Shown here piece after piece: positions 1,790 to 17,674 of a stretch of 64,000 nucleotides of DNA (positions are counted from its first letter, which is position 1; each line of letters begins with the position of its first letter). The notes below the pieces were generated by a model that searched no databases, had not been told where the DNA came from, and saw only the letters and a program-made list of their open reading frames with translations. The DNA comes from Candidatus Flavonifractor merdavium (GTDB lineage: Bacteria > Bacillota > Clostridia > Oscillospirales > Oscillospiraceae): the NCBI GenBank assembly GCA_019119335.1, contig DWXF01000044.1, positions 1 to 64,000 of the forward strand, read 5' to 3'. A program made the translations under genes and the position numbers.

Positions 1790-3223
1790 CTATTGGGCGA
1801 TATCCTCCAGTGCGCGGTATTTGGTTTTGCCGGACTCATTTTTCGGAATGGAGGCCAGGGCCTGGACCTGGAACACCCGGGGCGGGAAGTGCATCTGGGC
1901 GCTGAGGTAATCGGAAGCATCCTGCGTGAGGGCGGGATCCGGGCTGTCGTGGAAGATGCGCAGGCAGTCGTCCCTGCCCACACAGGCGAAGCCGGCCTGG
2001 GGAAAACGGGTGGAGAGCAGCCGCTCCACCTCGTCCAGGCTGACCCGGTTGCCGTAGAGCTTCACAAACCGCTTTTTCCGGCCCACAATGTAATAGAAGC
2101 CGTCCTCGTCCCGCTTGGCCATGTCGCCGGTATGGAGCTCGCCGTGCCACTGGTCCCCCAGGCGCAAATCGTCCGCCTGCTGGGCGTAGCCCATGGCCAC
2201 ATTGGGACCCTGGTACACCAGCTCTCCCACCGTGTCCGCCGTCTGGATCTCGCCGCCGTCCTCCTGAAGCAGCCGGAACCGGCCGCCGGGGACGGGAATA
2301 CCCATGCTGCCGCACTTGCGGATGGCCTCCTCCGGCGGCAGATAGCCCATCCGGGGGGAGGCCTCGGTCTGGCCGTACATAACACAGAACCGCCGGCCGG
2401 TCTGCTCCGCCCAGGCGGCATACTCCCGGTGCAGGGCCTCGGGCAGCTTGCCGCCCGCTTGGGTCAGGGTGCGCAGGGCGGGCAGAGCCATGCTTTGCAG
2501 CCCCGCTCGCTGGAACATGCGGTAAGTGTAGGGCACGCCGGCCAGAGAGGTAACCTGCTCCCGCTCCATCAGCTCCCAGAAGGGCCGCTCCAGCACGCTG
2601 CGGCGGGTAAGAACAATGGTTGCCCCTGCCAGCAGATGGGTATTGAGGATGGACATGCCGTAGGAGTAGCTCATGGCCAGATTGGTGACGGGACGCTCCG
2701 CCTCGGTCAGCCCCAGGTACTCCACAATGGATTTGGTGTTGGACTCCAGATTGCGGGCGCTGATGCGCACCAGCTTGGGGCTGCCGGTACTGCCGGAGGT
2801 GGTGAGCAGCAGGGCCAGCTCGGGGTGGAGTTCCGGGCCCTCCGTCCCCCGGCGGAGCAGCTGGGCATCCTCCAGGGTCAGGTGGGGCTGGTACTCTCGC
2901 AGCACCTGTCTGGTTTCCTGGGGCAGATCCTCCGGGACGCAGACGAAGGCGGGCTGGTAGGCGGCCAGCAGGCCTTCCAGCAGCTCCGGCGAGATGTGGG
3001 CGTCCAGCAGCAGGGGGACTGCCCCGGTATTCAGGCAGGAGAAATAGCTCATCAGCAGGCCGGGGGTGTTCTCGCACAGCAGAAAGACCAGCTTATGGCC
3101 TCCCACGGCCCGGCCCAGCCGCTCGGAGGCGGCGTTCAGATCCCCTAAGGTATACCGCCGCCCCTCTTCTGTTACCGCCAGCAGCCGTTCCGGCTCCCGG
3201 GCGCAGCGGTCAAACAGTTCCAT
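1790..3223 (-). CDS. AMP-dependent acyl-CoA synthetase/ligase family protein
   Basis: ANL motifs LLTTSGSTGSPKLV, YGQTEASPRM, GELHTGDMAKRDEDGFYYIVGRKKRFVKLYGNRVS and C-terminal Lys in IPKNESGKTKY. Confidence 0.88.
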   Translation of the reverse strand: MELFDRCAREPERLLAVTEEGRRYTLGDLNAASERLGRAVGGHKLVFLLCENTPGLLMSYFSCLNTGAVPLLLDAHISPELLEGLLAAYQPAFVCVPEDLPQETRQVLREYQPHLTLEDAQLLRRGTEGPELHPELALLLTTSGSTGSPKLVRISARNLESNTKSIVEYLGLTEAERPVTNLAMSYSYGMSILNTHLLAGATIVLTRRSVLERPFWELMEREQVTSLAGVPYTYRMFQRAGLQSMALPALRTLTQAGGKLPEALHREYAAWAEQTGRRFCVMYGQTEASPRMGYLPPEEAIRKCGSMGIPVPGGRFRLLQEDGGEIQTADTVGELVYQGPNVAMGYAQQADDLRLGDQWHGELHTGDMAKRDEDGFYYIVGRKKRFVKLYGNRVSLDEVERLLSTRFPQAGFACVGRDDCLRIFHDSPDPALTQDASDYLSAQMHFPPRVFQVQALASIPKNESGKTKYRALEDIAQ

Positions 3224-3224
3224 A

Positions 3225-4424
3225 TTAAACCTCCCCTCCGATCATGCGGGACAGGGCGGCGATTACGTCTTTCCCGTCCCAAATGGTGTCCAGCTCCAGG
3301 GCCTGCCCCGGAGCGACCACCCGATCCACACCCCGGGCGCCATGTTCCGCCAGCAGGGCGGCTACCTCCCGGGGCTCCACCCCGGCGCAGACGAGGGTCT
3401 GCACCTTGGGGGCGGTCAGCGGGGGCAGTTCCTCCAGGCTGGACAGCTCTCCCTGGAAAAACAGCCCAAAGCCCCCCTTAAGCTCCGGCAGGGGCGCGGT
3501 CAGCCCCGCCAGATTGACCACATACAGCAGGTTGCCGCCATACCGCTCCACCCCGGCTACTGCCGGCGCCTGCATGGTCATGGCGGCGGTACACAGCCGC
3601 TCCAACTTGCGGGCGGCCTGGAATGGGCCGAAGGGGTAGCGCTCTTCCGCCTCGGCGGCCACCGCCTCCCACCATTGCCGCCGGCAGTCCGGATCGCCGC
3701 CGTCCGCCAGCCACAGTACCAGCTGGGGGCTGGAGCAGGCGTTCTGGTCCATCTGATAGGTGTCGTTGTAGAACCGGTGGGCCAGGGCCCTTCTGGCCTC
3801 GTCATCCAAAGCGGAGAAATACCGCTGGCTGAACAGGGCCAGGGACCAGCGGTCGGGGAAGCACAGTTCCACGGCGTGGGGGGGCATGGGCATGGCCCGC
3901 AGGGCGGCCACTGTGGCGTCCCCGCCCCACACCACTCTGCCGTCGCAGCAAGCACAGAATTCCGCGGTGATGGCGTCGTCCCGCTCATAGGAGACCAGCG
4001 CGGTGCGGGCCTTGACTCCGGCGTGCTCCGGACGGTCCAGAACCCGGCCAATGGCCGCCACCAGGGGGGCCTCCTCCTCCGCCCGGCGGCTGGACAGCCG
4101 GACGAGGTTGGCATTTCCGGCCAACAGGCCCAGAGCCATGGTGTAGGCAAACATGGCCGGCACGTTGGAGGGGGCCAGGTGGAAGATCAGCCCCCGGCCC
4201 AGCCGGGGAAGGGGGGAGGCGTGGCGTCTGGACAGGGTCTCCAACCGGGGCCGGCGGCACCAGAAGCCGAAGGCGGCCGCCGCCTCCAGCCGCCGGGTCT
4301 CCGGCGCGCCCAGCACCTCTGCCGACAGGTCGGAGAGGAAGTTCAGGGCTCTGGGGTCAAAGGGCGGCCAGGGCGTGGATTCCGGTTGATCCACTCCGGC
4401 CAGCAGGGTGATATTATCCCTCAT
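3225..4424 (-). CDS. LuxC-like acyl-CoA/acyl-protein reductase
   Basis: LuxC-type architecture: LIFHLAPSNVPAMFAYTMALGLLAGNANLVRLSSR, and NDTYQMDQNACSSPQLVLW around the expected catalytic Cys. Confidence 0.82.
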   Translation of the reverse strand: MRDNITLLAGVDQPESTPWPPFDPRALNFLSDLSAEVLGAPETRRLEAAAAFGFWCRRPRLETLSRRHASPLPRLGRGLIFHLAPSNVPAMFAYTMALGLLAGNANLVRLSSRRAEEEAPLVAAIGRVLDRPEHAGVKARTALVSYERDDAITAEFCACCDGRVVWGGDATVAALRAMPMPPHAVELCFPDRWSLALFSQRYFSALDDEARRALAHRFYNDTYQMDQNACSSPQLVLWLADGGDPDCRRQWWEAVAAEAEERYPFGPFQAARKLERLCTAAMTMQAPAVAGVERYGGNLLYVVNLAGLTAPLPELKGGFGLFFQGELSSLEELPPLTAPKVQTLVCAGVEPREVAALLAEHGARGVDRVVAPGQALELDTIWDGKDVIAALSRMIGGEV

Positions 4425-5493
4425 AGGTGTCGCTGCACCCCCTTACCTCGGCCCGGGGCGCCCGCCCCGTCACCTGAAAATACTTGCCTGCCCGTCCGCA
4501 GGGGCAGTCGTCCTCTCCCAGCAGCACGCCCAGGTCCTCTGTGAGCAGAGAGTGTCCCGGATAGGAGTGGGGGAGGGGGGAGAGCACCTGGATCAGCCCC
4601 GGCTCCCCCACGTCGCAGGGGGAGTAGTCCCGCCAGCGGCGCACCACCACGTCGGACCAGATGCTGGCGTGCAGATGCCCCTGGGGACACTCCAGATAGA
4701 TGCAGCCGGTCTGTTCCGCCATACCGTAGTAATTGCGCACCTGCTCAATACCGGTGACGGCGTGGATGCGGGCCTTGAACTCCTGGGGAGAGACCGCCTC
4801 GCTGGCCAGCTTTTTCCAGCCGCCCCCATGGAGCAGGATACCCTTGGGGATGGAGAGGGTTTCCCCACGCTCCTCCAGCACCCGGATCACGTGCCGCCAG
4901 ATGATATAGGTAAAGCCAAACAAAAAGATGGGTTCCCCCTGGTGGGCCTCCAGAAAGGCCCGCACGCCGTCCAGGTCCAGCTCCATGTGCTGGTCCAGGG
5001 CGTAGCAGGTTTTGGAGCCAAAGACGGAGAAGCCCAGCACCCCCGCTCCCCGGGCGGAGAACATGGCCCGGTCCCGCAGCACCCGCTTGCTGTCCAGCAC
5101 CAGGTAGGGCAGCCGGTGCTCTCCCAGCAGGTCGGCCATGATCCCGCTCAGCGCCCGCTGCTGGACGGCGGAGGTGTCGGCGTCCAGGAAGATTTTGGAT
5201 ACCTGCTGTCCGGTGGTGCCGGAGGAGGTCACGGTTTTGAAAATCTCCTCCTCCGGTACGCTGCGCAGCTCCAGCTCCTTGAAGATGGACACCGGCAGCA
5301 TGGGGGTGTTTTCCACGGTGCACTCCATATGCTCCGGACAGCCCAGCGCCTGCAGCAGCCGGCCGTAGGCCGGGCAGTGGGTCCGGTGGAACTGGGTCAG
5401 CTGGGTGAGGAGGGAGGCGTAGATAGCCTGCTTCTCCGGGCAGGGCAGGGAGTAGGCCCGGAATTGCAGCAGGGTGTTCAGATCAATGGTCAT
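4414..5493 (-). CDS. LuxE-like acyl-protein synthetase
   Basis: TSSGTTGQQVSKIFLD, YYGMAEQTGCIYLECPQGHLH, LLTEDLGVLLGEDDCPCGRAGKYFQVTGR; Cys near the C-terminus (RGCSDTYEG). Overlaps the LuxC-like gene by 11 nt. Confidence 0.85.
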   Translation of the reverse strand: MTIDLNTLLQFRAYSLPCPEKQAIYASLLTQLTQFHRTHCPAYGRLLQALGCPEHMECTVENTPMLPVSIFKELELRSVPEEEIFKTVTSSGTTGQQVSKIFLDADTSAVQQRALSGIMADLLGEHRLPYLVLDSKRVLRDRAMFSARGAGVLGFSVFGSKTCYALDQHMELDLDGVRAFLEAHQGEPIFLFGFTYIIWRHVIRVLEERGETLSIPKGILLHGGGWKKLASEAVSPQEFKARIHAVTGIEQVRNYYGMAEQTGCIYLECPQGHLHASIWSDVVVRRWRDYSPCDVGEPGLIQVLSPLPHSYPGHSLLTEDLGVLLGEDDCPCGRAGKYFQVTGRAPRAEVRGCSDTYEG

Positions 5494-6133
5494 GTCCGCT
5501 CCTTTCTGTCAGCGTGAACGGAGCCCCGTGGCCGGGACAGATCTGCAGTCCGGGGGCCAGGTTGTCCAGGAACGGCCTGGTATGGGTGTTGTAGTCGTCG
5601 GCGCTGCCGCCGGGCAGCCGGAGGATCACCTCTTCCCCCGGGATGAGATAATCCCCGGAGAAAAAGGTGGTACCGTCCAGAAAGATACCGGCGCTGCCCG
5701 GCGTGTGGCCGGGCAGCGCCGTACACTGGAGCCGGTGCCCTCGCCACACTGTCTCCCAGGTATCCCCGTAAGTGCGGTCCGCCGGCCGGCAGACGAAGGG
5801 GGGATAGGACACGCCGGTCTTTCCCCGAAAGGTCAGATAGACCTCCATCAGCTGGGTCATGTTGAGCCGCTTGCTCTGGATGCCCGCGCTGCAGGCCTCG
5901 CTGGTTACCACCACCGCCTGGGGCCAGCACTCCCGCAGGGCTTCCAGCCCGGCCATGTGGTCGCAGTGCTCGTGGGTCAGCAGAATGAGCTCCGGTGTCC
6001 AGCCCAGCTCCTCCAGCCGGGCCGGTACGCGGACGGGATCGTTGGGGTCGATCACCACCGCGCCGCCGCCCTCCCCCAGCAGATAGCAGTTGCTCTCCGT
6101 CAGCGGATCGGTCTGTCGTTCCAGCTCCAGCAT
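5483..6133 (-). CDS. MBL-fold metallo-hydrolase
   Basis: HxHxDH motif LLTHEHCDHMAG, ALPGHTPGSAGIFL, LQICPGHGAPFT. Confidence 0.85.
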   Translation of the reverse strand: MLELERQTDPLTESNCYLLGEGGGAVVIDPNDPVRVPARLEELGWTPELILLTHEHCDHMAGLEALRECWPQAVVVTSEACSAGIQSKRLNMTQLMEVYLTFRGKTGVSYPPFVCRPADRTYGDTWETVWRGHRLQCTALPGHTPGSAGIFLDGTTFFSGDYLIPGEEVILRLPGGSADDYNTHTRPFLDNLAPGLQICPGHGAPFTLTERSGHDH

Positions 6134-6136
6134 GAC

Positions 6137-6373
6137 TTACAGCTCCACACCGTATTTGGCCAGAACTTCTTTCCCCTTTTCATAGGAGGAAAAGTCCAGC
6201 ACGTCCACGGTGCTCAGGCTGATCTGGAAGGTCTCCTCCAGATCCCCCATCAGATCCATGTGCCCCAGGGAATCCCACAGGGGAATGCCGCGGTATTTCA
6301 GGGTGGGCAGGTCCTCCGGCTTTACCCGGAAGGCCCGCAGGAACAGCTGATCGTATTTCTCCAGATTGGTCAT
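6137..6373 (-). CDS. acyl carrier protein
   Basis: MTNLEKYDQLFLRAFRV...PLWDSLGHMDLMGDLEETFQISLS: ACP-like, with Ser in a DSL motif for 4'-phosphopantetheine. Confidence 0.82.
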   Translation of the reverse strand: MTNLEKYDQLFLRAFRVKPEDLPTLKYRGIPLWDSLGHMDLMGDLEETFQISLSTVDVLDFSSYEKGKEVLAKYGVEL

Positions 6374-6403
6374 GGTGTGGTTTCCTTTCATTTGCAGCGC
6401 GAG

Positions 6404-6443
6404 AGCGGCATGGGCCGGTCCGGTGGACCGGCCCAATGCCGCT
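6404..6443. other. long intercistronic hairpin without a U-tract
   Basis: AGCGGCAT-GGGCCGGTCC / GGACCGGCCC-(A bulge)-ATGCCGCT with a 3-nt loop. On the minus strand it is followed by CTCGCGCTG, not a T-run. Confidence 0.75.
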
Positions 6444-6457
6444 GGGAGGCTGCTATA

Positions 6458-7756
6458 TTATTCGTACTTGCAGTGGAAGCGCTTCTCGTACTCGGCCTTC
6501 AGCTCGTCCCGGAAGTCGGGATGGGCGATCTCAATGAGGTTGTGAGCCCGCTGACGGAGGGTGCGGCCCTTCAGGGCGGCCACGCCGTACTCGGTCACCA
6601 CATAGTCCACGTCGTTGCGGCTGGTGGTGACGGCGGCGCCCTCGTCCAGCAGGGGGACGATCTTGGAGATCTTGCCCTTGACGGTGGCGGGCATAGCCAT
6701 GATGGACACGCCGCCCTTGCTGGCGGAGGCGCCGCGGACGAAGTCCACCTGGCCGCCCACGCCGGAAATCTGCTTGGGTCCGATGCTCTCAGAGGCCACC
6801 TGGCCCATCAGATCCACCTGCACGCAGGAGTTGATGGAGATCAGGTTGTCGTTCTGAGCGATGATGAAGGGGTTGTTGACGTAGTCCACCGGGCGCAGCT
6901 CCACGTCGGGGTTGTGGTCCACGAAGTCGTACAGCCGGCGGGTGCCCATCAGGAAGGCCACCACGAACTTGCCGGGGTGGAGGGTCTTTTTGGCGTTGGT
7001 GATCACGCCGGCCTCGGCCAGCTCCACCACGCCGTCGGAGAACATCTCGGAGTGTATGCCCAGATCCTTCTTGCCCTTCAGGAACAGGAGCACCGCGTCG
7101 GGGATGGCGCCGATGCCCAGCTGGAGCGTGGCGCCGTCGGGAATGAGGGAGGCGCAGTTCTCGCCAATGGCCTTCTCAATATCGCCGATCTTGGGGGGAT
7201 TGAGCTCAATGATGGGCGCCTCATGCTCCACGATGCAGTCCAGGTCCTCCACGGACACCAGGCTGTAAGGGCCGGTCCAGGGCATCTGGGGGTTGACCTG
7301 GGCGATGACGGTCTTGGCCTGCTTGACGGCTTCCAGGGTGTAGTCCACCGACACGCCCAGGGAGCACATGCCGTTCTCGTCAGGGGGAGTCACCATGACC
7401 ATGGCCACGTCCACCGGCATGGTGGTGCTGAACTGGCGGGGCACCTCAAAGAAGAAGCTGGGGGTGAAGTCGCCCCGGCCCTCCTCGATGGCGGCACGGG
7501 TGGAGCCGCCCACGAAGAAGGCGTTGTGGCGGAAGTTGGCGGCGTACTCGGGCTTGCAGTATTCGCCCTTGCCCATGGCTACCATGTGGACGATCTCCAC
7601 GTCCTTGTAGGCGCTGGCGTTGGCCACCATGGCGTCCAGCAGGTAGGAGGGCTCGCCGCAGGCGTGAGCCACCACTACCCGGTTGCCGGACTGGATGTGC
7701 TTCACCGCCTCCTCGGCGGACATCAGGTGCTGCTGATAATGCTCTTTCCAACTCAT
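6458..7756 (-). CDS. acetyl-CoA hydrolase/transferase family protein, probable 4-hydroxybutyrate CoA-transferase
   Basis: CoA-transferase family I-type sequence (PDGATLQLGIGAIPDAVL, HSEMFSDGVVELAEAGVITN, DYVVTEYGVAALKGRTLRQRA). The 4HB assignment comes from the abfD neighbour. Confidence 0.85.
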   Translation of the reverse strand: MSWKEHYQQHLMSAEEAVKHIQSGNRVVVAHACGEPSYLLDAMVANASAYKDVEIVHMVAMGKGEYCKPEYAANFRHNAFFVGGSTRAAIEEGRGDFTPSFFFEVPRQFSTTMPVDVAMVMVTPPDENGMCSLGVSVDYTLEAVKQAKTVIAQVNPQMPWTGPYSLVSVEDLDCIVEHEAPIIELNPPKIGDIEKAIGENCASLIPDGATLQLGIGAIPDAVLLFLKGKKDLGIHSEMFSDGVVELAEAGVITNAKKTLHPGKFVVAFLMGTRRLYDFVDHNPDVELRPVDYVNNPFIIAQNDNLISINSCVQVDLMGQVASESIGPKQISGVGGQVDFVRGASASKGGVSIMAMPATVKGKISKIVPLLDEGAAVTTSRNDVDYVVTEYGVAALKGRTLRQRAHNLIEIAHPDFRDELKAEYEKRFHCKYE

Positions 7757-7797
7757 GGTATAATCACACTTCTTCCATTTAGAATTTGGCGCGCGGA

Positions 7798-8895
7798 TCA
7801 GCGGGCCAGCCATTCCCGACCCAGACGGTCGGCCTCCAGGATGGCGTCGTACACCTCCTGAGCGGTGATATCTGCCCGCAGGTTTTTGGTGGACTGAGTG
7901 GGCACACAGGCGGCCTCCGCCACCTTGTGCAGAGTCTCGGGAACAACCTCAGTGACCCCCAGCTGAGCCAGGGTCATGGGCAGACCGGTGTCCTTCAGGA
8001 AGGAGAGGACCTGCTCCAGCTCCTCCTGGGGGGCCTTTTCCAGTACCAGCTGGGTCAGGGTGCCGAAGGCCACCTTTTCGCCATGGTACATGCCGTGGGC
8101 CTGAGGCTCCTGGGCAAAGCCGTCGTTGATGGCGTGGGCGGCGGCCAGACCGCCATTTTCAAAGCCCAGACCGCTGAGGTAAATGGTGGCCTCCACCACG
8201 TCCTCCAGTTCGGGGGTTACCTCATGCCGCTCCACCGCGCTCAGGGCGGCCCGGCCCTTTTCCATCAGCAGGTCGTAGCAGAGGTGGGCCATCATCAGAC
8301 CGGTGTTGGACACATTGCCCCGGGCCATGGTGCGGGCGCCGCTCTTGTGGCAGGCCCTGGCCTCAAACCAGGTGGACAGCGCGTCGCCCAGACCGGCGGC
8401 AAAGAGCCGCTTGGGGGCGTTGGCGATGATGTTGGTGTCCACCAGGACCAGGTCGGGGTTGCGGCGCATGAGCACCGCCTTGACTACTACCCCGGCGTCG
8501 TTATAGAGCACGGCCACGCCGGAGCAGGGGGCGTCGTTGGAGGCCACGGTGGGAAGAATGACGCAGGGCAGGCCCAGATTTTCCGCCACAGCCTTGGCGG
8601 TGTCCAGAGCCTTGCCGCCGCCCATGCCCACCACCACGTCGCAGCCCTGAGCCTTGCACTCGTCCATCTTGGCAAAGACCTCTTCCTTGGTGGCCTCTCC
8701 GTGGAAGGTGGTAAAGACCACCTGCTTCTCCTGGGCGGTCAGGCTCTCCTCCACCTGGGCGCCGAAGCGGGAACGGTTGTTGTCCGAGCAGATGATCAGG
8801 AACTTGTCGCCCAGCTTTTTGGCGCTGCGGCCCAGGTTGGCCAGTTCCCCCGCGCCCTGAGCATAGCGGGCGGGGGCCTTGATTGCGTAAGTCAT
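7798..8895 (-). CDS. iron-containing alcohol dehydrogenase, glycerol dehydrogenase (GldA)-like
   Basis: GMGGGKALDTAKAVAENLGLPCVILPTVASNDAPCSGVAVLY, LGDALSTWFEARAC, HGEKVAFGTLTQLVLE. Confidence 0.85.
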   Translation of the reverse strand: MTYAIKAPARYAQGAGELANLGRSAKKLGDKFLIICSDNNRSRFGAQVEESLTAQEKQVVFTTFHGEATKEEVFAKMDECKAQGCDVVVGMGGGKALDTAKAVAENLGLPCVILPTVASNDAPCSGVAVLYNDAGVVVKAVLMRRNPDLVLVDTNIIANAPKRLFAAGLGDALSTWFEARACHKSGARTMARGNVSNTGLMMAHLCYDLLMEKGRAALSAVERHEVTPELEDVVEATIYLSGLGFENGGLAAAHAINDGFAQEPQAHGMYHGEKVAFGTLTQLVLEKAPQEELEQVLSFLKDTGLPMTLAQLGVTEVVPETLHKVAEAACVPTQSTKNLRADITAQEVYDAILEADRLGREWLAR

Positions 8896-8920
8896 GTTTC
8901 TTGTCTCCTACTTGTTTGGA

Positions 8921-9643
8921 TTACCGAAAAGCCAGCCGGACCTCCAGGTCGGCGGCCAGAGCCCCGTCCACAAAGACCTGCCCCCGGCAGAAGGCGATGG
9001 CCCGGGAGGGTTTTTCCTCCAGGAGGGACACATGGATGTCCAGGGTCTCTCCCGGCAGGATCTTGCGGCGGAAGGTGGCCTCCCGCACCCCCATGAACAG
9101 GGGAAGGGTGCCCGCGTACCGCTGGGCGGACATCATCAGAATGTCCGCGGCCTGGGCCACCGCCTCGATGGTGTAGATGCCGGGAAGAACCGGCGAGCCG
9201 GGAAAGTGGCCGGCAAAGGCGGGCAAGTCGGGCCGGGCCAGAAAGGAGGCCACAACCTCCTCGCCGGGCACCAGGCGGCTCACCTCGTCGATGAACAGCA
9301 TGGGTGGGCGGTGGGGCAGGATCTCCAGCACCTGCTGGTGGGTCAGCGTGAGCACCTCCTGCTCCTGCAGGGCAAGGGTAAGCTTTTCCTTGGACGGCAG
9401 CAGATCCTCCCAGCCGTTGAGGGGGATGAGGCGGCCGGCCGGAACGGCCAGATCGCTGGTGTTGGCGCAGCGGGAGGGGCAGCCGCACACCACCAGCGCC
9501 GCCGGATAGGGGACGCCGGGAAGGGCGTTGACAAACTCCACCTCGGGGAAGAAGGAGCCCAGCCGCTTGACCAGGGCCACCCGGTCGTATCTGGAATTAC
9601 AGCCTCCGCAGTAGCGGACGCCTACCTGACGCTTATCCGCCAT
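8921..9643 (-). CDS. fusion of a Cys-rich N-terminal domain with a FabZ/hotdog dehydratase-like domain
   Basis: N-terminal YCGGCNSRYDR...VVCGCPSRCAN. C-terminal ILPHRPPMLFIDEV...FAGHFPGSPVLPGIYTIEAVAQAADIL matches the FabZ catalytic His/Glu context. Confidence 0.82.
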   Translation of the reverse strand: MADKRQVGVRYCGGCNSRYDRVALVKRLGSFFPEVEFVNALPGVPYPAALVVCGCPSRCANTSDLAVPAGRLIPLNGWEDLLPSKEKLTLALQEQEVLTLTHQQVLEILPHRPPMLFIDEVSRLVPGEEVVASFLARPDLPAFAGHFPGSPVLPGIYTIEAVAQAADILMMSAQRYAGTLPLFMGVREATFRRKILPGETLDIHVSLLEEKPSRAIAFCRGQVFVDGALAADLEVRLAFR

Positions 9644-9917
9644 GGCGCATTTTCAGAATGGCGCGGGCCTCGTCGAGCAGGTCCTCGCTGATGTCCTGAA
9701 CCAGGACGGCCTGTTTGATCTGGGGGAGATGCTCGGTCAGTGTGGTCTGGATCAGCTCCTCGGTGGTCAGGTCGGCGGCGGGGCAGCCGGCACATTTGCC
9801 CTTGAGCTTGAAGCGGACCACGCCGTCCTCCACCTCCACGACCTCCATGTCGCCGCCGTGGGTGCGCAGAAGGGGACGCACGTGCTCGTCCAGCACGGCT
9901 TCAATCTCCTCATACAT
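9633..9917 (-). CDS. NifU C-terminal domain-type Fe-S scaffold protein
   Basis: VRPLLRTHGGDMEVVEVEDGVVRFKLKGKCAGCPAADLTTEELIQTTL with CxxC; overlaps the next gene by 11 nt. Confidence 0.88.
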   Translation of the reverse strand: MYEEIEAVLDEHVRPLLRTHGGDMEVVEVEDGVVRFKLKGKCAGCPAADLTTEELIQTTLTEHLPQIKQAVLVQDISEDLLDEARAILKMRHGG

Positions 9918-9935
9918 AGCGGATAACCTCCTTTG

Positions 9936-9979
9936 TTAAAAAACCGGGGGGACGGCGGAACACCGCCGCCCCCCCGGTT
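9936..9979 (-). terminator. terminator-like hairpin between abfD and the nifU-like gene
   Basis: 17-position stem (one A/C mismatch) AACCGGGGGGaCGGCGG-aaca-CCGCCGcCCCCCCGGTT; on the minus strand followed by TTTTTT and then the RBS AAAGGAGG of the next gene. Confidence 0.82.
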
Positions 9980-10003
9980 ATCGGTTTTGCTGTTGGGTTG
10001 GTC

Positions 10004-11455
10004 TTACTCCTGGATATGAGCGATGGCCTTGGCCAGGGCCTTCTTCTGGGCCAGGTTGCCCTGACGGGAGATCATGATGCGCTGAGCCTGGGGAGAGCCG
10101 GCGCCGTGCATGGACTCGGTGCGGTAGCCGACAGCGGCGGTGCCCAGGGACAGGTTCTCGATGAGGCGCAGAATGCGCAGCCGGTTCTCGGTGGAGACGG
10201 TGGACACGCCGCGCAGGTACTTGTCGATGACGGGCCCCAGCTTCTCGTCGCGGAAGTCGGCCTCGCCGGGAGCGGTGACCATCAGGCCGCCGGCAATGTC
10301 CTCGGCCAGACGGACGATCTCATAGGGGAAGCGGGTGACGTTCTGCTTGCAGACGTTGGCCAGCAGCAGGTCGATCATGTAGTTGCCGCTCTCGGTGGGA
10401 GCGCCCTCGGCGGAGCAGGCGATGCCGCAGCAGTACAGGGTCTCGTTCAGGTGGGTCATCTCGATGAGCTTATCCTTGATGTGGGAGGCCTTGGCGGCGC
10501 CGTTGTAGTCGGCGGCCACGGCGGCGGCGCCGATGAGCACGTCGCCCACGCCAACCTTACAGCCGCCGTAGCTCTGGCGGTGATAGCCGGCGAAACGCTC
10601 CACCAGCATGCCGGCGAACTCGGTCTCGCCGTTCATGAAGATGCGGTCATTGGGAACGAACACATGGTCAAACACGGTAAGGGCTTCCACGCCGCCGAAC
10701 TCGGCGTTGCCCACGTCCATCTCGCTGCCTTCCAGCTTGCGGGTGTCGCAGCTCTGGCGGCCGATGATCATGAACAGACCCTTGGTGTCCAGAGGCACGG
10801 CGAAGGAGATGGCATAATCCTTGTCGTCGGGACCCATGGACTGGGTGGGCATCACGATGACCTCGTGGCTGTTGATGATGCCGGTCTGGTGGGCCTTGGC
10901 GCCGCAGACCACAACGCCGTCCTCACGGCGCTCCACCACATGCAGGAACATATCGGGATCGTCCTGGGCGTGGGGGGCCTTGGAGCGGTCGCCCTTGACG
11001 TCGGTCATGGCGCCGTCCACGGTCAGGTCGTTCTCCTGGCAGTAGAGCATGAACTTCTTGAAGTTCTCATGATAGTTGGTGCCGTACTTCTTGTCGATCT
11101 CATAGGTGGTGGAGTACTCGGCGTTGAAGGCGTCCATGCCCACGCAGCGCTGGAAGCAGGCGGCGGTCTTCTGGCCCAGCAGACGCTGCATCTTCACCTT
11201 GTTGCGCAGGTCCTCGGTGGAGCGGTGAATGTGGGTGAAGCGGTTGATGCGCTCGCCGGTCTCGGGGGAGACAGCGGTCATCAGGTCCTGATACTCGGGC
11301 ATCTGAGCCAGATCATAGGTCATGCGCACGCTGTTCAGAGAGGGGCGGAGGATGGGGTTATCGACAGGATTCTCCACCTTCTTGCCGAACATGTAGATCT
11401 CCATGGGGATCTTGCGTATGCTTTCGATGTACTGCTCACCAGTCATGAGTGCCAT
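10004..11455 (-). CDS. abfD: 4-hydroxybutyryl-CoA dehydratase / vinylacetyl-CoA delta-isomerase
   Basis: Highly characteristic: CFQRCVGMDA and HRQSYGGCKVGVGDVLIGAA preserve the Cys/Cys and His-x6-Cys [4Fe-4S] ligand pattern of AbfD; MTGEQYIESIRK N-terminus. Confidence 0.93.
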   Translation of the reverse strand: MALMTGEQYIESIRKIPMEIYMFGKKVENPVDNPILRPSLNSVRMTYDLAQMPEYQDLMTAVSPETGERINRFTHIHRSTEDLRNKVKMQRLLGQKTAACFQRCVGMDAFNAEYSTTYEIDKKYGTNYHENFKKFMLYCQENDLTVDGAMTDVKGDRSKAPHAQDDPDMFLHVVERREDGVVVCGAKAHQTGIINSHEVIVMPTQSMGPDDKDYAISFAVPLDTKGLFMIIGRQSCDTRKLEGSEMDVGNAEFGGVEALTVFDHVFVPNDRIFMNGETEFAGMLVERFAGYHRQSYGGCKVGVGDVLIGAAAVAADYNGAAKASHIKDKLIEMTHLNETLYCCGIACSAEGAPTESGNYMIDLLLANVCKQNVTRFPYEIVRLAEDIAGGLMVTAPGEADFRDEKLGPVIDKYLRGVSTVSTENRLRILRLIENLSLGTAAVGYRTESMHGAGSPQAQRIMISRQGNLAQKKALAKAIAHIQE

Positions 11456-11510
11456 AAGTCAGAACTTCCTTTCTCATTTAAATTTCAGTTATGGACTGAA
11501 AATTTCAGGA

Positions 11511-12914
11511 TTAATTTTGGTTGTTCTCGCTGGAGGCGGAAACGGCGGCCTGCTGAGGCTGCTCCTTCTTCTTGCCCTCAAACAGCAGGAAGAACAGGAT
11601 GAGACCAACGGCCAGGCCCCAGGCGGCGCCCTGGATGGCCAGCACGGCGCCCATAACGCCGCAGATACCGCGCTCAATATCGGTGCGGCACATATTCATA
11701 GCCAGCTGGGTGCAGATGAAGCCCTGAACGATCAGGGTCAGGGACAGAGCCACAGGCAGCACGGGCTGCAGCAGGGAGGAAATGGGGATCAGGGCCACGC
11801 AGATGAAGGTGGACCAGCGGAAGGTGCCGGCGCCGCTGTAGATGGACTCCATGGCCTTGGGACCCTCTTTGTATCGCTGAGACACAGCGGCGGTGACAGC
11901 CGCCCACAGGGGGCCGCAGGTCTGGGTGTAGGGGCAGCAGATGGCCATGGCCACGTTGCGGATACCGCTGATGACGTTGGAGCGGTTGGCGTTGAAGTCG
12001 ATCTTCTCGTCCTGACGGATCTCGTCAGCGCTGGCAATGAGCTCCTCAGAGGTAACGAAGTCGCCGAAGGCGATGATGTACACCACGATAGCGGTGGGGA
12101 TGGCGGCGAGCCAAGTGGTGGCGCTGGGCCAGCCGATGGCGAAGGGAGAGAGCTGGTTCCAGATGTTGCCGAACTCAGGAATCTTGAACAGGGGCCACCA
12201 CTGCACGTCGGGGATAGCCAGCTCGCCCACGATGGGGCCCAGCACGATGCCGATGATGATGGCGGGCAGCATGCCGAACTTGCCGATAACATCAATGACC
12301 TTGTTCTGTCTGCGCATCTTGGCCCAGATGGGGCTGAACAGGCAGAAGTAGGCGATCAGCACGCCCACGGTAATGGAAATGGGATAGGTCCAGTAACGGC
12401 CCGTGGCGCTGATCTCGCCGATGATGGCGGACAGACCGCCGCCCATCAGCACGCCGGCCTTCACGGAGTTGGGTACCAGATGGACCATCTTGCCGCCGAT
12501 GCCGGTGATACCGAACACCAGGAAGATGACGCCCAGAATGAGCTGCATGGCGATCAACGCCTGCGTCCGTTCCGGTCCCATGGCGTAACCGTCTTCCAGG
12601 AAGGCGGTGATGAGGGGAATAGCGGGGGTAATCCAGCCGGGGACCACCGGGTCGCCCAGCAGTACATGCAAGTTATAGAAGAAGCCGTTGATGATAACCA
12701 TGGAGAGCGCCACTTCGTAGCTGACACCCAGCACTTCGGTCAGCACGGGGATGGCGCCCAGACATGTGGCACACATAAAGACAGCCTGCACCATTTCGGG
12801 TATGGACCAGGCGTAGTGGATGAACGGAAGACGGATCTTGAAAATACCGGCTTTCCAATAGGGCTGCTCCTCGCCGTATTTGCGGTAGCGGCTGACGAAT
12901 TGTTCGTTTGCCAT
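11511..12914 (-). CDS. NCS2 (xanthine/uracil permease)-like membrane transporter
   Basis: Polytopic protein with PGWITPAIPLITAFLEDGY, GITGIGGKMVHLVPNSVKAGVLMGGGLSAI and NVISGIRNVAMAICCPYTQTCGPLWAA. Substrate unknown. Confidence 0.65.
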   Translation of the reverse strand: MANEQFVSRYRKYGEEQPYWKAGIFKIRLPFIHYAWSIPEMVQAVFMCATCLGAIPVLTEVLGVSYEVALSMVIINGFFYNLHVLLGDPVVPGWITPAIPLITAFLEDGYAMGPERTQALIAMQLILGVIFLVFGITGIGGKMVHLVPNSVKAGVLMGGGLSAIIGEISATGRYWTYPISITVGVLIAYFCLFSPIWAKMRRQNKVIDVIGKFGMLPAIIIGIVLGPIVGELAIPDVQWWPLFKIPEFGNIWNQLSPFAIGWPSATTWLAAIPTAIVVYIIAFGDFVTSEELIASADEIRQDEKIDFNANRSNVISGIRNVAMAICCPYTQTCGPLWAAVTAAVSQRYKEGPKAMESIYSGAGTFRWSTFICVALIPISSLLQPVLPVALSLTLIVQGFICTQLAMNMCRTDIERGICGVMGAVLAIQGAAWGLAVGLILFFLLFEGKKKEQPQQAAVSASSENNQN

Positions 12915-13003
12915 GTGCGTTCCCTCTTTCTCACCCCAAAGCAGGAGTTTTTTCGTTCCCGTTACGACAGTTGGCCAACTGCTTCGTGACGGTCTTTAAT
13001 TAT

Positions 13004-13020
13004 TGCATAGCGCGTGCCAA
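13004..13020 (-). promoter_or_regulatory. sigma-54 (-24/-12) promoter candidate for the permease-abfD operon
   Basis: Minus strand TTGGCACGCGCTATGCA: GG-N10-GC spacing and near-match to TTGGCACG-N4-TTGCW, adjacent to a sigma-54 enhancer-binding protein gene. Confidence 0.85.
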
Positions 13021-13027
13021 CTTATGA

Positions 13028-13070
13028 AAAAATGTCCAATCCATTGTGTCTCAATGGATTGGACATTTTT
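13028..13070. repeat. 19-bp perfect inverted repeat with 5-nt spacer
   Basis: AAAAATGTCCAATCCATTG-tgtct-CAATGGATTGGACATTTTT, between the EBP gene and the -24/-12 promoter; terminator and/or regulator site. Confidence 0.85.
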
Positions 13071-13091
13071 AGAAAAATTTGCGGATTGAGG

Positions 13092-13115
13092 GCTTGCTGC
13101 ATTTTTGCAGCAAGC
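13092..13115. promoter_or_regulatory. 10-bp inverted repeat, possible upstream activating site
   Basis: GCTTGCTGCA-tttt-TGCAGCAAGC. The core TTTTGCAGC recurs at about 13185-13193 and 13205-13213. Confidence 0.45.
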
Positions 13116-13200
13116 TTTTTGGAGAAGGAAAGGTTAGCCTAACTTAAAACCGTTGTTTCCCAACAAATTTGATAGGTGATGCGCTTTTGCAGCGCTTGTT

Positions 13201-14628
13201 TCATTTTTGCAGCATCGCTTCAAACTTGCGGCGCTTGCGCACAAAGGTGGCGCTGTCCATCCCCAGACTGGCCGCTGCGGCCCGCACCGTTCCGTATTTG
13301 GCATAGGCCCGGCAGATATATTTGTACTCAAAGCGGGCCACCTGCAGCTTGAGGTCCACAGCGCCCATATCGTCGGCGTCGTTCAGTTCCCCGCCGAAGT
13401 GGCAGGCGATAGGCAGGTCCGTGGAGGAGATCTCGTCCCCGATGCTCAGAATCACCGCCTGCTCCACCACGTTTTTCAGCTCCCGGACGTTGCCGGGCCA
13501 GGAGTACTGGTGGAGCAGCTCCATGGCTCCCTTGCTGAAGGTCTTGTGATAGCGGTATTTTCGATTCAGGTCCCGCAGGAAGGTCTCTACCAGCGGGCGG
13601 ATGTCCTCCTTGCGCTCCCGCAGGGGCGGGATGACCAGCGGCACCACGTTCAGCCGGTAGTACAGGTCCTCCCGGAAGGTCTTTTCGTGGACCATCTCCA
13701 ACAAATTCCGGTTGGTGGCGGCGATGATGCGCACGTCCACGGGGATGGAGCGTACGCCGCCCACCCGCCGCACCTGCATTTCCTGCAGCACCCGCAGCAG
13801 ATGGACCTGCATCTCCAGGGGGAGATCACCCACCTCGTCCAAAAATACTGTGCCCTTGTTGGCGCTTTCAAACACACCCATTTTGCCCTCCCGGCTGGCG
13901 CCGGTAAAGGCCCCTTTCTCATAGCCGAAGAGTTCGCTTTCAATCAGGGTGGCGGGAATGGCGCCGCAGTTGATGCCGATGAAGCTCTGCTCCGCGCGGG
14001 CGGAGTTTTCGTAGATGTAGCGGGCAAACTGCTCCTTGCCCACGCCGGTCTCGCCCAGCAGCAGGATGGTGGTGTCCAGAGCGGCCACCTTCTGGGCCTT
14101 GGCCATGACCTCCAGGGTGTGGGGATCCCTGGCCACCATGGCGGATACGAATTTCTGGTTGCGCTGCAGAAAGTCCATCTCGGAACGGCGGCGGGTTTCG
14201 CTCTCCTGGTAGCGCTCCCGCAGGCGGTAGATTTCCGTGATGTCCCGCACCATGGTGATGATCATGGTGATGTTGCCCGCCTCGTCAAAATGGGGCGTGC
14301 TGGTGATCAGCGCCCGTTTTCCCGTGCGGAAGGTCTGCTCCAGCGTGACCGGGCGGCGGCTTTTCAGCACGCACAGCGAGCCGGAACGGTCGATGAGCCC
14401 CGAGGCGATGATCTCCCGCATGTTTTTCCCCAGCACATTTTCCCGCCGCAGGCCGGAGACCTCCTCGTAGGCCTGGTTGATCAGAATGGTGTTGGCGTCT
14501 CCGTCTGTGATGTAAAGTCCGTCATAGATGCTGTTCAGAATGGCGAACAGCTGAAAGTTGATCTCCTTCTGGCTGCCTCGCAGCAGCGTGGAGCTCTCGT
14601 CCAGAAAAATACGTCCGGATTCCTGCAT
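13201..14628 (-). CDS. PAS-domain sigma-54-dependent transcriptional regulator (enhancer-binding protein)
   Basis: PAS region (DGLYITDGDANTILINQAYEEVSGLRRENVLGKN); AAA+ motifs GETGVGKEQFARYIYENS, ELFGYEKGAFTGAS (intact GAFTGA), GTVFLDEVGDLPLEMQ; C-terminal HTH-like region. Confidence 0.93.
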   Translation of the reverse strand: MQESGRIFLDESSTLLRGSQKEINFQLFAILNSIYDGLYITDGDANTILINQAYEEVSGLRRENVLGKNMREIIASGLIDRSGSLCVLKSRRPVTLEQTFRTGKRALITSTPHFDEAGNITMIITMVRDITEIYRLRERYQESETRRRSEMDFLQRNQKFVSAMVARDPHTLEVMAKAQKVAALDTTILLLGETGVGKEQFARYIYENSARAEQSFIGINCGAIPATLIESELFGYEKGAFTGASREGKMGVFESANKGTVFLDEVGDLPLEMQVHLLRVLQEMQVRRVGGVRSIPVDVRIIAATNRNLLEMVHEKTFREDLYYRLNVVPLVIPPLRERKEDIRPLVETFLRDLNRKYRYHKTFSKGAMELLHQYSWPGNVRELKNVVEQAVILSIGDEISSTDLPIACHFGGELNDADDMGAVDLKLQVARFEYKYICRAYAKYGTVRAAAASLGMDSATFVRKRRKFEAMLQK

Positions 14629-14653
14629 CAGTCATCCCTCCGTTGTCGTGCCG

Positions 14654-15226
14654 TCAGCCCTTGGGTACGTTCCCTTCCAGAATCACCAGGGGCATGCCGC
14701 ATTTTTGGGTGATGAAGCCGTCAAAACGGTCCAGCTCCTCCGCGCCGGAAAAAGCGGAGACCGGAATGATATAGGCGCCCTGGGAGAAATAGAGGAACCG
14801 CCACTGGGGCAGGGCGGCCAGATGGGTCACCTCTTTGTAGCGGGCCGTGGCCGTGGTGTCGCCCACCTTGGCCCGGATCCGGTCGCCCTGGAACAGGAAT
14901 TCCACCTGAGCGGGGTATTCGCCCTTCCGCTTGGCGTCCCGGATGGCCTTGCGGCAGGTCTTGTGCTGGGCCCGCATGGCGCCCAGGGGAATGACCGCGA
15001 ACTGCAGCACGGCGAAGGCAATGCCGCCGATGCGGACAGGCAGCGGGGAGGTATTCCAGTTGAATATCAGCAGAATTACAATGATTGCCGCAATGCTGAA
15101 CAGGGCGGGGTAGGCCATGACCTCCATCCGGTGCTTCTGAAAGAGCTTCCACGTGGCTTTGGCCATGGCCCGATAGGCCGATTCGTCATAGGTGCTTTTT
15201 ATGAGAATGTCGGTTTCCGCGTGCAT
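14654..15226 (-). CDS. YcxB-like membrane protein
   Basis: Two hydrophobic segments followed by a YcxB-like C-terminal region (GDTTATARYKEVTHLAALPQWRFLYFSQGAYIIPVSAF). Confidence 0.6.
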   Translation of the reverse strand: MHAETDILIKSTYDESAYRAMAKATWKLFQKHRMEVMAYPALFSIAAIIVILLIFNWNTSPLPVRIGGIAFAVLQFAVIPLGAMRAQHKTCRKAIRDAKRKGEYPAQVEFLFQGDRIRAKVGDTTATARYKEVTHLAALPQWRFLYFSQGAYIIPVSAFSGAEELDRFDGFITQKCGMPLVILEGNVPKG

Positions 15227-15325
15227 GGGATGATCTCCTCCGATCTGTGCATTATGAAGGCATTGTACAGCGAAACAGAAAACTTATCAAGTCCGCAAAT
15301 GAAACCCAGCGCTGACAAAAATGGG

Positions 15326-15377
15326 TTGACAATGCTGTCTACATGATATAGACTATAAATGTCTACAAGATGAAGAC
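15326..15377 (+). promoter_or_regulatory. promoter with two tandem BlaI/MecI-type operator candidates
   Basis: TTGACA at 15326-15331; GTCTACATGATATAGAC (15337-15353) and GTCTACAAGATGAAGAC (15361-15377), just upstream of a blaI-like gene. Confidence 0.75.
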
Positions 15378-15392
15378 AAGGAGGGGACGGCC

Positions 15393-15758
15393 ATGAAGGC
15401 CTATCGTTTGGGGGCGGTGGAGGCCAGGTTTGCGGACCTGATCTGGGCCAACGCCCCGCTGACCACCGGGGAGCTGGTCAAGCTGTGCCAAAAGGAGCTG
15501 CAGTGGAAGCGGACCACCACCTACACGGTGTTGAAGCGGCTGTGTGAGCGGGAGATCTTTGAGACCAGGGACAGCGTGGTGACGGCAAAGCTCTCCCGGC
15601 AGGCGTTTTACGCCTGCCAGAGCGAGGAATTTGTGGAGGAGTCCTTCGGCGGCTCCCTGCCCGCCTTTCTGGCGGCCTTTACCGCCAGAAAAAAGCTGTC
15701 CCAGGCTGATGTGGCGGAGCTTAGGAGAATGATTGAGTCCTATGAAGAGGGGGAGTGA
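15393..15758 (+). CDS. BlaI/MecI/CopY family transcriptional repressor
   Basis: Winged-helix sequence IWANAPLTTGELVKLCQKELQWKRTTTYTVLKRLCEREIFETRD. Confidence 0.9.
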   Translation: MKAYRLGAVEARFADLIWANAPLTTGELVKLCQKELQWKRTTTYTVLKRLCEREIFETRDSVVTAKLSRQAFYACQSEEFVEESFGGSLPAFLAAFTARKKLSQADVAELRRMIESYEEGE

Positions 15759-17674
15759 GCATGGCGGTCCTGTTTGAAAAGCTCCTGTCCATGAGCGCTT
15801 CCGCCGGCTGGCTGATTCTGGCGGTGGTGGTGCTGCGGCTGGCGCTGTGCCGGGCCCCCAAATGGATGCGCTGCTGGCTGTGGGCTTTGGTGGGGGTGCG
15901 GCTGGTGATGCCTGTTTCTCTGAAAAGTCCTCTGAGTCTGGTTCCTCAGTCCCCGGCTGAGATGGGGGCCGTCCTGCCGGAGCCGCCGGTTACTCTGCCC
16001 CAGCAGCTGCCGCAGGGTGTGGGCGGGTACACGGCGGCGGCAGATGTCCAGGCGGGCCCGGAGCTGATGGCGGCGCTGGGCTGGCTCTGGCTGGCCGGGG
16101 TTTTGCTGCTGCTGGGGTATGCCCTGCTCAGCATGCTCCGCCTGCGGCGGCGGGTGGCGGAGGCGGCCCTGCTGGAGGGGAAGGTCTGGCAATGCGACCG
16201 GGTGGACACCCCCTTTATCCTGGGCGTGTTCCAGCCCAAAATCTATTTGCCCTCCGACCTGCCTCCGGCGGCGCTGGAGCCGGTGCTGGCCCATGAGCGG
16301 GCCCACCTGGCCCGGAGGGACCACTGGTGGAAGCCGCTGGGCTTTCTGCTGCTGGCGGTCTACTGGTTTCACCCGCTGGTGTGGCTGGCCTACGGGCTGT
16401 TCTGCCGGGATCTGGAGCTGGCCTGCGACGAGCGGGTGGTCCGAAAACTGGATGGGGCGGGGCGGAAGGCCTATTCCCAGGCCCTGCTGACCTGCAGCGC
16501 GGACCGACATGTTTTGGCTGCTTGTCCGCTGGCGTTCGGAGAAGGAAATGTAAAGGGGCGGATCAGGGCGGCGCTGCACTACCGCAAGCCCGCCTTCTGG
16601 CTGGTGCTGGTGGCAGCGGTGGCCTGCGTCGCGGCGGCGGCTTGCTTTCTCACCGACCCGGTCCGCCATCCCACCCTGGAATGGGCCCAAAATCTGACGG
16701 CGGAGCAGGTGGCCTCTGTGGAGCTGGTGGTGATGCCCCAGAGCCAGGACAAGCAGTATAAGCGGTTCTCTTCGGAGGAGATCCCGGCGGTGGTGGCGCT
16801 GCTCAACCAGAGCCGGGGCCGCCCGGAGGGAGAGCCTGAGAGCCTGAACGGGCAGAGCATCTGGTTTTACCTCACCCTCACCGACGGCACCCGGCATGAG
16901 GTGGGCAACATGGGGAACGTCTATCTGGTGATTGACGGGGACTATTACGATGGCCCCTATGACTGGCTCTCCACCTGGGAGGACGCCTATGGCGCAGGGG
17001 ATTCCCCGCTGCCGGAGGGCTATTTTGATCCTGCCCTTACCCTGGAGGATGTGCTGAAACTCTCAGAGAAAGGGGAAGGGCTGGTCTGGGAGGACCTGGA
17101 CGGTTTCTCCTATACCGAGGCGGGCTCCGGCCTTTACATCCGGATCTACCCCATTGACAGCCGGTATACCCTGTGGGTGGGGGGTGCGGGGCCCTCCGGC
17201 TTGATTATGTACGCCAACCTGAACTGTGCGTACTTTGGAGAGGGCGTGGATATCCGTACCGGAGACGCGGCGGCCTTTGTGGAGGGGCAGGAGGAGCGGT
17301 GGAACCGGACGGCGGAGCTGTTTGCCGTCATTGCATCCACTCCCGCTGCGTCTTCCAGTCCCGAGGATTATCTGGACGCCCATCCGGAGGAACACCAGGC
17401 CCTCCTGGACGGCGGGACGGACACCCTGTGCTACATCTTTTCCCAATTCCTGGCGGGGAATCAGACCGGACTGGAGGGCCACCTGATGCGCCTGGTGCTG
17501 GACGAGCTGGCCCCGGAGGCCCGGCTCAAGCTGGAGGCCGATACCGGGCAGGAATATTTCGACGCCTGGCGGGAGACGGCGGAGGGTGTTCTGGAGGAAC
17601 AGGGGGCGGAATGGATGGAAGAAAACCAGCCCGCCATGTGGCTCATGCTGCAAATGCAAAGGGCGGAACCCTAA
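15755..17674 (+). CDS. M56-family (BlaR1-like) metallopeptidase sensor
   Basis: LAHERAHLARRDHWWKPLGFLLLAVYWFHPLVWLAYGLFCRDLELACDERVV; N-terminal TM segments; starts inside the end of the blaI-like gene. Confidence 0.87.
   Translation: MSMAVLFEKLLSMSASAGWLILAVVVLRLALCRAPKWMRCWLWALVGVRLVMPVSLKSPLSLVPQSPAEMGAVLPEPPVTLPQQLPQGVGGYTAAADVQAGPELMAALGWLWLAGVLLLLGYALLSMLRLRRRVAEAALLEGKVWQCDRVDTPFILGVFQPKIYLPSDLPPAALEPVLAHERAHLARRDHWWKPLGFLLLAVYWFHPLVWLAYGLFCRDLELACDERVVRKLDGAGRKAYSQALLTCSADRHVLAACPLAFGEGNVKGRIRAALHYRKPAFWLVLVAAVACVAAAACFLTDPVRHPTLEWAQNLTAEQVASVELVVMPQSQDKQYKRFSSEEIPAVVALLNQSRGRPEGEPESLNGQSIWFYLTLTDGTRHEVGNMGNVYLVIDGDYYDGPYDWLSTWEDAYGAGDSPLPEGYFDPALTLEDVLKLSEKGEGLVWEDLDGFSYTEAGSGLYIRIYPIDSRYTLWVGGAGPSGLIMYANLNCAYFGEGVDIRTGDAAAFVEGQEERWNRTAELFAVIASTPAASSSPEDYLDAHPEEHQALLDGGTDTLCYIFSQFLAGNQTGLEGHLMRLVLDELAPEARLKLEADTGQEYFDAWRETAEGVLEEQGAEWMEENQPAMWLMLQMQRAEP

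Follow-up and report, generated by a model that had tools for sequence, protein, structure and literature searches.

A predicted sigma54-controlled operon joins 4-hydroxybutyryl-CoA dehydratase genes to a Lux-type reductase block in Flavonifractor and its relatives

Why would a bacterium place genes for 4-hydroxybutyryl-CoA chemistry in one operon with relatives of the LuxC and LuxE fatty-acid reductase proteins? The question is raised by a stretch of 64,000 nucleotides (hereafter the window) from Candidatus Flavonifractor merdavium (assembly GCA_019119335.1, contig DWXF01000044.1, positions 1 to 64,000), which forms the start of a contig from a Flavonifractor-genus metagenome-assembled genome (MAG) that is 82% complete. 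An earlier, sequence-only reading had described a tight run of eleven minus-strand genes, among them the gene for 4-hydroxybutyryl-CoA dehydratase (AbfD), and had proposed that its two functional blocks work together. A check against the list of open reading frames (ORFs) recovers all eleven genes in a single operon from 12914 to 1790, with intergenic gaps of -16 to +86 bp, and the family assigned to each agrees with Pfam, NCBIfam and PDB comparisons. In order of transcription, the genes are:

11511–12914, minus strand: PurT-like (NCS2-fold) permease (phmmer to PDB 7tak_A, E 1.5e-118, 400 bits)
10004–11455, minus strand: AbfD (PDB 1u8v, E 1e-239; cluster ligands C100, C104, H292, C299)
9633–9917, minus strand: NifU C-terminal-domain (Nfu-like) protein (Pfam NifU, 3e-23)
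8921–9643, minus strand: Cys-rich domain (CGGC, CGCPSRC) fused to a FabZ-type (R)-3-hydroxyacyl dehydratase (Pfam FabA, 5e-22; model pLDDT 89)
7798–8895, minus strand: GldA-type iron-containing alcohol dehydrogenase (NCBIfam glycerol dehydrogenase subfamily, 486 bits against a cut-off of 336)
6458–7813, minus strand: 4-hydroxybutyrate CoA-transferase-like protein (true start about 17–19 codons downstream)
6137–6436, minus strand: dedicated acyl carrier protein (ACP; phosphopantetheine serine S56; probable start at codon 22, MTNLEKY)
5483–6133, minus strand: metallo-beta-lactamase (MBL)-fold hydrolase (HxHxDH motif; Pfam Lactamase_B, 7e-18)
4414–5493, minus strand: LuxE-like acyl-protein synthetase (Pfam LuxE, 3.5e-51; SSGTTG and YYGMAEQ motifs; C353)
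3225–4424, minus strand: LuxC-like acyl-thioester reductase (Pfam LuxC, 7.6e-25; C230; model pLDDT 94)
1790–3223, minus strand: AMP-forming acid ligase (CaiC-like), presumed ACP loader (Pfam AMP-binding, 9e-52; TSGSTGxPK, YGQTE, HTGD and PKNESGK motifs)

Judged from genome comparisons, the linkage of the AbfD and Lux blocks is real and old. The gene arrangement is preserved across many other genomes at 36–99% protein identity, and the nearest named relative, Flavonifractor sp. An306, carries a LuxE that is 99% identical. When LuxE loci were collected across phyla by a genome-wide LuxE scan and by family scans, those containing AbfD were found to share AbfD, NifU, the Cys-rich protein, the CoA-transferase, ACP, LuxE, LuxC and the ligase in several gene orders. 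Such loci occur in Flavonifractor species, other Oscillospiraceae, Lachnospiraceae, Lacrimispora, Lachnotalea glycerini, [Clostridium] aerotolerans and the spirochaete Treponema vincentii. In a LuxE tree, those encoded in AbfD loci fall into a single clade of 27 sequences (support 93/83; main subclade 98/96), the edge of which is less certain owing to the long branches of L021 and L156. AbfD lies within the locus for 23 of these 27 and within the genome for 26. In three cases (L043, L045 and L046) it is encoded elsewhere in the genome, and in L043 one operon seems to be split by the ends of the two contigs; for L047, a genome search found no AbfD. Beyond this clade and its sister pair stand 51 LuxE sequences, largely from surface-glycan islands; not one has AbfD in its locus. 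Six genomes from outside the clade were searched whole, and AbfD was found only in that of L055, a member of the sister pair.

The converse association is much looser. In the Flavonifractor genus, the majority of abfD loci lack the Lux block. The AbfD copies linked to Lux are distinct from the Lux-less copies, which mostly group in a separate clade, and both types occur together in genome G201. Thus, abfD is commonly independent of the Lux genes, whereas a LuxE of this clade almost never occurs without abfD. Near AbfD, a Cyclase-family (PF04199) hydrolase also recurs, assigned by Pfam in L155 (5774–6592) and by sequence similarity in L022 (17326–18144) and L052 (20469–end).

A second line of evidence comes from the predicted control of these genes, which involves three features that flank the operon:

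13201–14628, minus strand: PAS-domain sigma54 activator (enhancer-binding protein), likely XanR-like (Pfam Sigma54_activat, 2e-69; PAS, 4e-10)
13019–13004, minus strand: predicted sigma54 -24/-12 promoter TGGCACGCGCTATGCA, between activator and permease, 105 bp before the permease ATG
1751–1784, called on the plus strand: terminator-like hairpin, a 15-pair stem followed by a T-rich tail, 3′ of the last operon gene

The predicted promoter TGGCACGCGCTATGCA matches 10 of 11 consensus bases, where shuffled sequences yield about 0.01 sites of at least 9 matches per region. Comparable sites are predicted 95–113 bp upstream in L019, L033, L035 and L040, an orthologue of the activator adjoins most AbfD/Lux loci, and each of the nine genomes tested encodes RpoN. 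In six loci AbfD and Lux are transcribed apart, the Lux operon being led by NifU or the permease (L041, L065, L068, L076, L142 and L156; L138 duplicates L065). Here predicted sigma54 sites of at least 10/11 matches stand 59–126 bp upstream of both operons in every case (12/12), against a background of 19 sites in 1,122 kb across 64 other LuxE loci (0.017 per kb). The pattern is not universal. In class Ib loci within L152–L157, no sigma54 site was found upstream of AbfD (L156 is counted among the six split loci). Nor do Lacrimispora-type loci have such sites; there, a LysR gene separates the two blocks. On the strength of the paired predicted promoters, the two blocks are probably co-regulated rather than responsive to separate signals. 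Indeed, recurrence across families and in one other phylum, confinement to a single LuxE clade, and parallel predicted promoters all support the earlier proposal that the blocks belong together.

In An306 itself (L032, genome G206, 11979–15477), the promoter is retained and the activator lacks its C-terminal 279 residues; transposase-like and transporter-like ORFs stand in place of its AAA+ and DNA-binding parts. This strain may have lost control of the operon.

The sequence-only reading knew of no named system with this combination, a statement overtaken by a 2019 study of sigma54 regulation. Table 1 of that study lists, for Clostridium, a XanR regulon composed of abfD-nifU-hyp-ach-golB and acp-caiC-luxEC (PMC6615313). 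The regulon is labeled "butyrate/butanol synthesis", and the section on butyrate/alcohol synthesis adds nothing further and gives no mechanism. The window likewise brings together abfD-nifU-hyp-CoA-transferase and acp-ligase-luxE-luxC, with a predicted -24/-12 promoter and a neighboring sigma54 activator, and five class Ib loci nearly match the gene set in that table. Relative to the table entry, the window differs in being one operon, in its MBL hydrolase, GldA dehydrogenase and Cys-FabZ fusion, and in the order ACP-MBL-LuxE-LuxC-ligase, and the system extends beyond Clostridium to a spirochaete. A separate report describes the AbfD orthologous group as sigma54-regulated, mainly in Clostridia (PMC12316311). 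Openly searchable full texts yielded no experimental study of the AbfD and Lux combination. The conserved, probably co-regulated system described here is a variant of a regulon previously only listed, and the sigma54 control and a hydratase domain swap are additions to the sequence-only reading.

The domain swap concerns the Cys-rich protein encoded next to NifU. Both class Ib loci and those without the Lux block encode the Cys-rich domain as a separate protein of 60–100 residues beside AbfD. Class Ia loci instead encode a fusion, either with FabZ (Oscillospiraceae, T. vincentii and L046/L047) or with MaoC (Lacrimispora, [C.] aerotolerans and L065/L068/L076), which takes the place of FabZ in Lachnospiraceae. 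FabZ and MaoC are two different hot-dog (R)-hydratase families, and a separate FabZ gene lies nearby in three of four class Ib loci from Lachnospiraceae genomes (L152, L154 and L157). Because a domain associated with AbfD has been fused to either enzyme, the (R)-hydratase step appears to belong to the system. New in this analysis is that a domain found unfused next to other AbfD genes has been joined to different hydratases in different lineages. In the window protein, the FabZ part carries the catalytic His and Glu within GHFPG and EAxAQ, falls just short of the NCBIfam cut-off (110.6 versus 113) and adopts the FabZ fold in the predicted model. Among the matches listed, a fold search with this model returned only FabZ, one of the entries being the E. 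coli AcpP-FabZ complex (6n3p), and gave no match for the Cys domain.

Does the Lux-type block retain what is needed for catalysis? Catalytic residues are kept in AbfD, LuxC, LuxE, ACP, ligase, MBL hydrolase and FabZ, and the residues required for ACP loading and thioester reduction can be recognized in the cassette. The ACP scores under the Pfam cut-off; its DS(L/I/V) serine is invariant in eight loci, and its homologues start at residue 22 of the window ORF. LuxC C230 aligns with the LuxC cysteine of the solved LuxC-LuxE complex and is invariant in 31 sequences, the top PDB fold match of the predicted LuxC structure is 7xc6_A, and LuxE C353, also invariant, aligns with C364 of 7xc6_E. The counterparts of C230 and C353 are the acyl-carrying residues in lux. 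The resemblance to the lux reductase (LuxC/LuxD/LuxE; 7xc6) thus covers both families, their aligned active cysteines and the LuxC fold, whereas the window operon has its own ACP and AMP-ligase and an MBL hydrolase in LuxD's place. That hydrolase is a candidate acyl-ACP thioesterase, and in two class Ib loci without the MBL gene an alpha/beta hydrolase, a member of LuxD's family, directly follows LuxC. Hydration/dehydration and thioester release therefore look like parts of the system. A Pfam search found no luciferase among the operon genes.

The other block is recognizable as 4-hydroxybutyryl-CoA chemistry. All four [4Fe-4S] ligands of AbfD are present and align with C. aminobutyricum C99, C103, H292 and C299, and a NifU-like gene adjoins AbfD in loci without the Lux block as well. 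The closest solved relatives of the CoA-transferase are 4-hydroxybutyrate CoA-transferases (3eh7, 565 bits; 3gk7, 551 bits), and the protein falls short of the NCBIfam butyryl-CoA:acetate equivalog cut-off. Its homologues begin at about residue 18–20 of the window ORF, so that its overlap with GldA is a start-codon artefact. The known route from 4-aminobutyrate or succinate to crotonyl-CoA comprises AbfD, CoA-transferase, 4-hydroxybutyrate dehydrogenase (4HbD) and SucD. The window operon supplies the first two and adds an ACP-dependent reductase module, 4HbD is encoded elsewhere in the MAG, and a search for SucD in the MAG, which is incomplete, revealed no orthologue, the best match being 34%. 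The GldA protein was considered as a 4-hydroxybutyrate dehydrogenase, which its position beside AbfD in L030 makes plausible; the NCBIfam equivalog model gives no support (41.6 bits against a cut-off of 500). The permease is present as noted earlier and can now be refined to a PurT-like NCS2-fold transporter. It is homologous to the purine transporter PurT (7tak) over its full length but diverges around the signature regions of transmembrane segments 8 and 10, so that a purine should not be taken for granted as its substrate. Permeases of another PurT-like family, with about 38% identity to the window protein, occur beside AbfD or 4HbD in L041, L042, L076 and L162, which suggests more than one imported substrate.

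How, then, might the two blocks cooperate? With confidence slightly below even, we favor a sigma54-controlled operon in which a 4-hydroxybutyryl-CoA dehydratase pathway and a Lux-type, ACP-dependent carboxylate reduction work together. The best-supported and most likely chemistry is ATP-driven reduction of a carboxylate to an aldehyde through ACP, LuxE and LuxC, and we take reduction to be the direction in which the module works. First, the AMP-ligase would charge ACP with a short acid, probably of four carbons. The Cys-domain/(R)-hydratase would interconvert enoyl and 3-hydroxyacyl thioesters, and the MBL hydrolase would release the acid, as LuxD does in lux. LuxE would then adenylate the acid and pass the acyl group by way of its C353 to C230 of LuxC, which would reduce it with NAD(P)H to the aldehyde. 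The hydroxyl would be formed last, by an iron alcohol dehydrogenase: GldA in the window, 4HbD in some relatives. If the acid were a C4 dicarboxylate such as succinate, the products would be succinic semialdehyde and then 4-hydroxybutyrate, which the CoA-transferase and AbfD could convert to crotonyl-CoA. We lean toward a C4 acid as the substrate, and consider it unlikely that the product enters AbfD as 4-hydroxybutyrate.

The distribution of companion enzymes bears on this last step. 4HbD is encoded in 12 of 20 Lux/AbfD genomes and in none of nine Lux-less genomes, a co-occurrence that is suggestive; the nine are all from one genus, and several have another iron alcohol dehydrogenase beside AbfD. 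The absence of SucD was considered as proof that LuxC makes succinic semialdehyde and rejected, because SucD (at least 40% identity) is rare both with the Lux block (3/20) and without it (1/9).

Several observations weigh against the cooperative scheme. LuxC and LuxE score 19.4 and 60.2 bits against NCBIfam equivalog cut-offs of 750 and 550 for the long-chain Lux enzymes, and hence the lux substrate is not transferable. With succinate as the acid, LuxC would be redundant in Lacrimispora-type clusters, since these also hold a SucD-like CoA-acylating aldehyde dehydrogenase. In T. vincentii a separate LuxC lies about 15 kb away, with no AMP-ligase beside it. GldA, to which the sequence-only reading had assigned the interconversion of aldehyde and alcohol, is absent from L019, L035, L041 and L042 and so does not count among the core genes. 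Moreover, ATP-driven reduction is expensive for a fermenter, and a plain succinate-to-4-hydroxybutyrate route has no place for the hydratase.

The hydratase would have a place if the module were instead an alcohol-forming branch after AbfD, in which it would hydrate crotonyl-CoA, the ligase, LuxE and LuxC would reduce a C4 acid, and the iron alcohol dehydrogenase would yield a C4 alcohol or diol such as 1,3-butanediol or butanol. The two forms of Cys-domain fusion to an (R)-hydratase speak for this possibility, as do crotonase, acyl-CoA dehydrogenase/Etf or thiolase genes that follow the ligase in several loci, and the heading under which the XanR regulon was placed (PMC6615313). Nevertheless, CoA-acylating aldehyde dehydrogenases could do the same without ATP, and some operons lack an alcohol dehydrogenase; we judge this branch unlikely.

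Relatives of the module suggest another use. Elsewhere, the ACP/AMP-ligase/LuxE/LuxC set adjoins short-chain dehydrogenases/reductases (SDRs), transketolase subunits, or FabZ, a thiamine pyrophosphate (TPP) enzyme, NeuB and KAS III, in polysaccharide-type neighborhoods. Transketolase, TPP enzyme and NeuB represent aldehyde-accepting or phosphoenolpyruvate-condensing families, and by analogy such neighbors would fit an aldehyde-producing role. Sets of this kind are known from flagellin glycosylation islands, often with FabG or FabZ (PMC7874193, PMC4875605); they have four proteins in common with the window operon, but no AbfD or CoA-transferase is reported with them. In our scans, glycan-type LuxE proteins fall outside the AbfD-linked clade, which nests among them and, in a tree whose root was not inferred, looks like a single recruitment of a glycan-type module. 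Conceivably, the C4 aldehyde is incorporated into a surface glycan or a small molecule, a fate presumed for the glycan-island versions, and AbfD would either provide C4 units or draw them off. The islands that pair the set with SDRs, transketolase, TPP enzyme or NeuB are in keeping with this idea, but the window operon lacks glycosyltransferase, transketolase and NeuB, and its permease, CoA-transferase and sigma54/PAS control look catabolic, which leaves a biosynthetic role improbable.

Slightly more doubtful still is an oxidative use, whereby an imported alcohol, aldehyde or lactone would be oxidized by GldA and LuxC and its acyl group directed to the 4-hydroxybutyryl-CoA route, the ligases running in reverse or serving as acyl transferases. 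A dedicated permease, a GldA of the diol/glycerol dehydrogenase family, the MBL hydrolase and inducible control would suit such a pathway, but the ATP-adenylation motifs of LuxE and the ligase are complete, and permease and GldA are missing from some loci. Finally, that two unrelated cassettes lie side by side by chance is suggested by the many AbfD loci without a Lux block, but we reject this as highly improbable given that the linkage recurs despite several rearrangements of gene order, that 26 of the 27 LuxE-clade genomes encode AbfD and that the split operons have matched predicted promoters.

The surroundings of the operon hold a few further genes. At the contig start, the N-terminal part of an ORF (26–310) is weakly similar to the HTH_38 helix-turn-helix of IS30-type transposases, and two plus-strand genes without a Pfam match (412–1149 and 1212–1727; 82–91% identity in An306) converge on the operon end. 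Directly upstream of the sigma54 activator lies a YcxB-like protein (14654–15226), found in the same place in several relatives, and beyond it a BlaI-type repressor is paired with an M56 (BlaR1-like) peptidase (15393–17674).

Returning to the cooperative scheme, gene content, catalytic residues, conserved linkage, shared predicted promoters and the hydratase swap are what the sequences themselves establish. Tentatively, and as something possible rather than probable, we hypothesize that an ACP-tethered, ATP-driven carboxylate reductase was recruited once from a glycan-type module to supply or consume C4 intermediates of the AbfD pathway, that the Cys domain physically couples the (R)-hydratase to AbfD, and that the whole may constitute an unrecognized route in gut anaerobes. 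The conserved predicted sigma54 promoters and the fused hydratase make this hypothesis directly testable. It would also matter for community surveys, in which abfD serves as a marker gene for one gut-bacterial butyrate route and recruits disproportionately many reads (PMC5715108): if part of the abfD of anaerobes belongs to a different, Lux-linked pathway, abfD-based butyrate read-outs would miscount that part. In that case, gut and oral bacteria would also hold a small aldehyde- or alcohol-forming chemistry that awaits a substrate.

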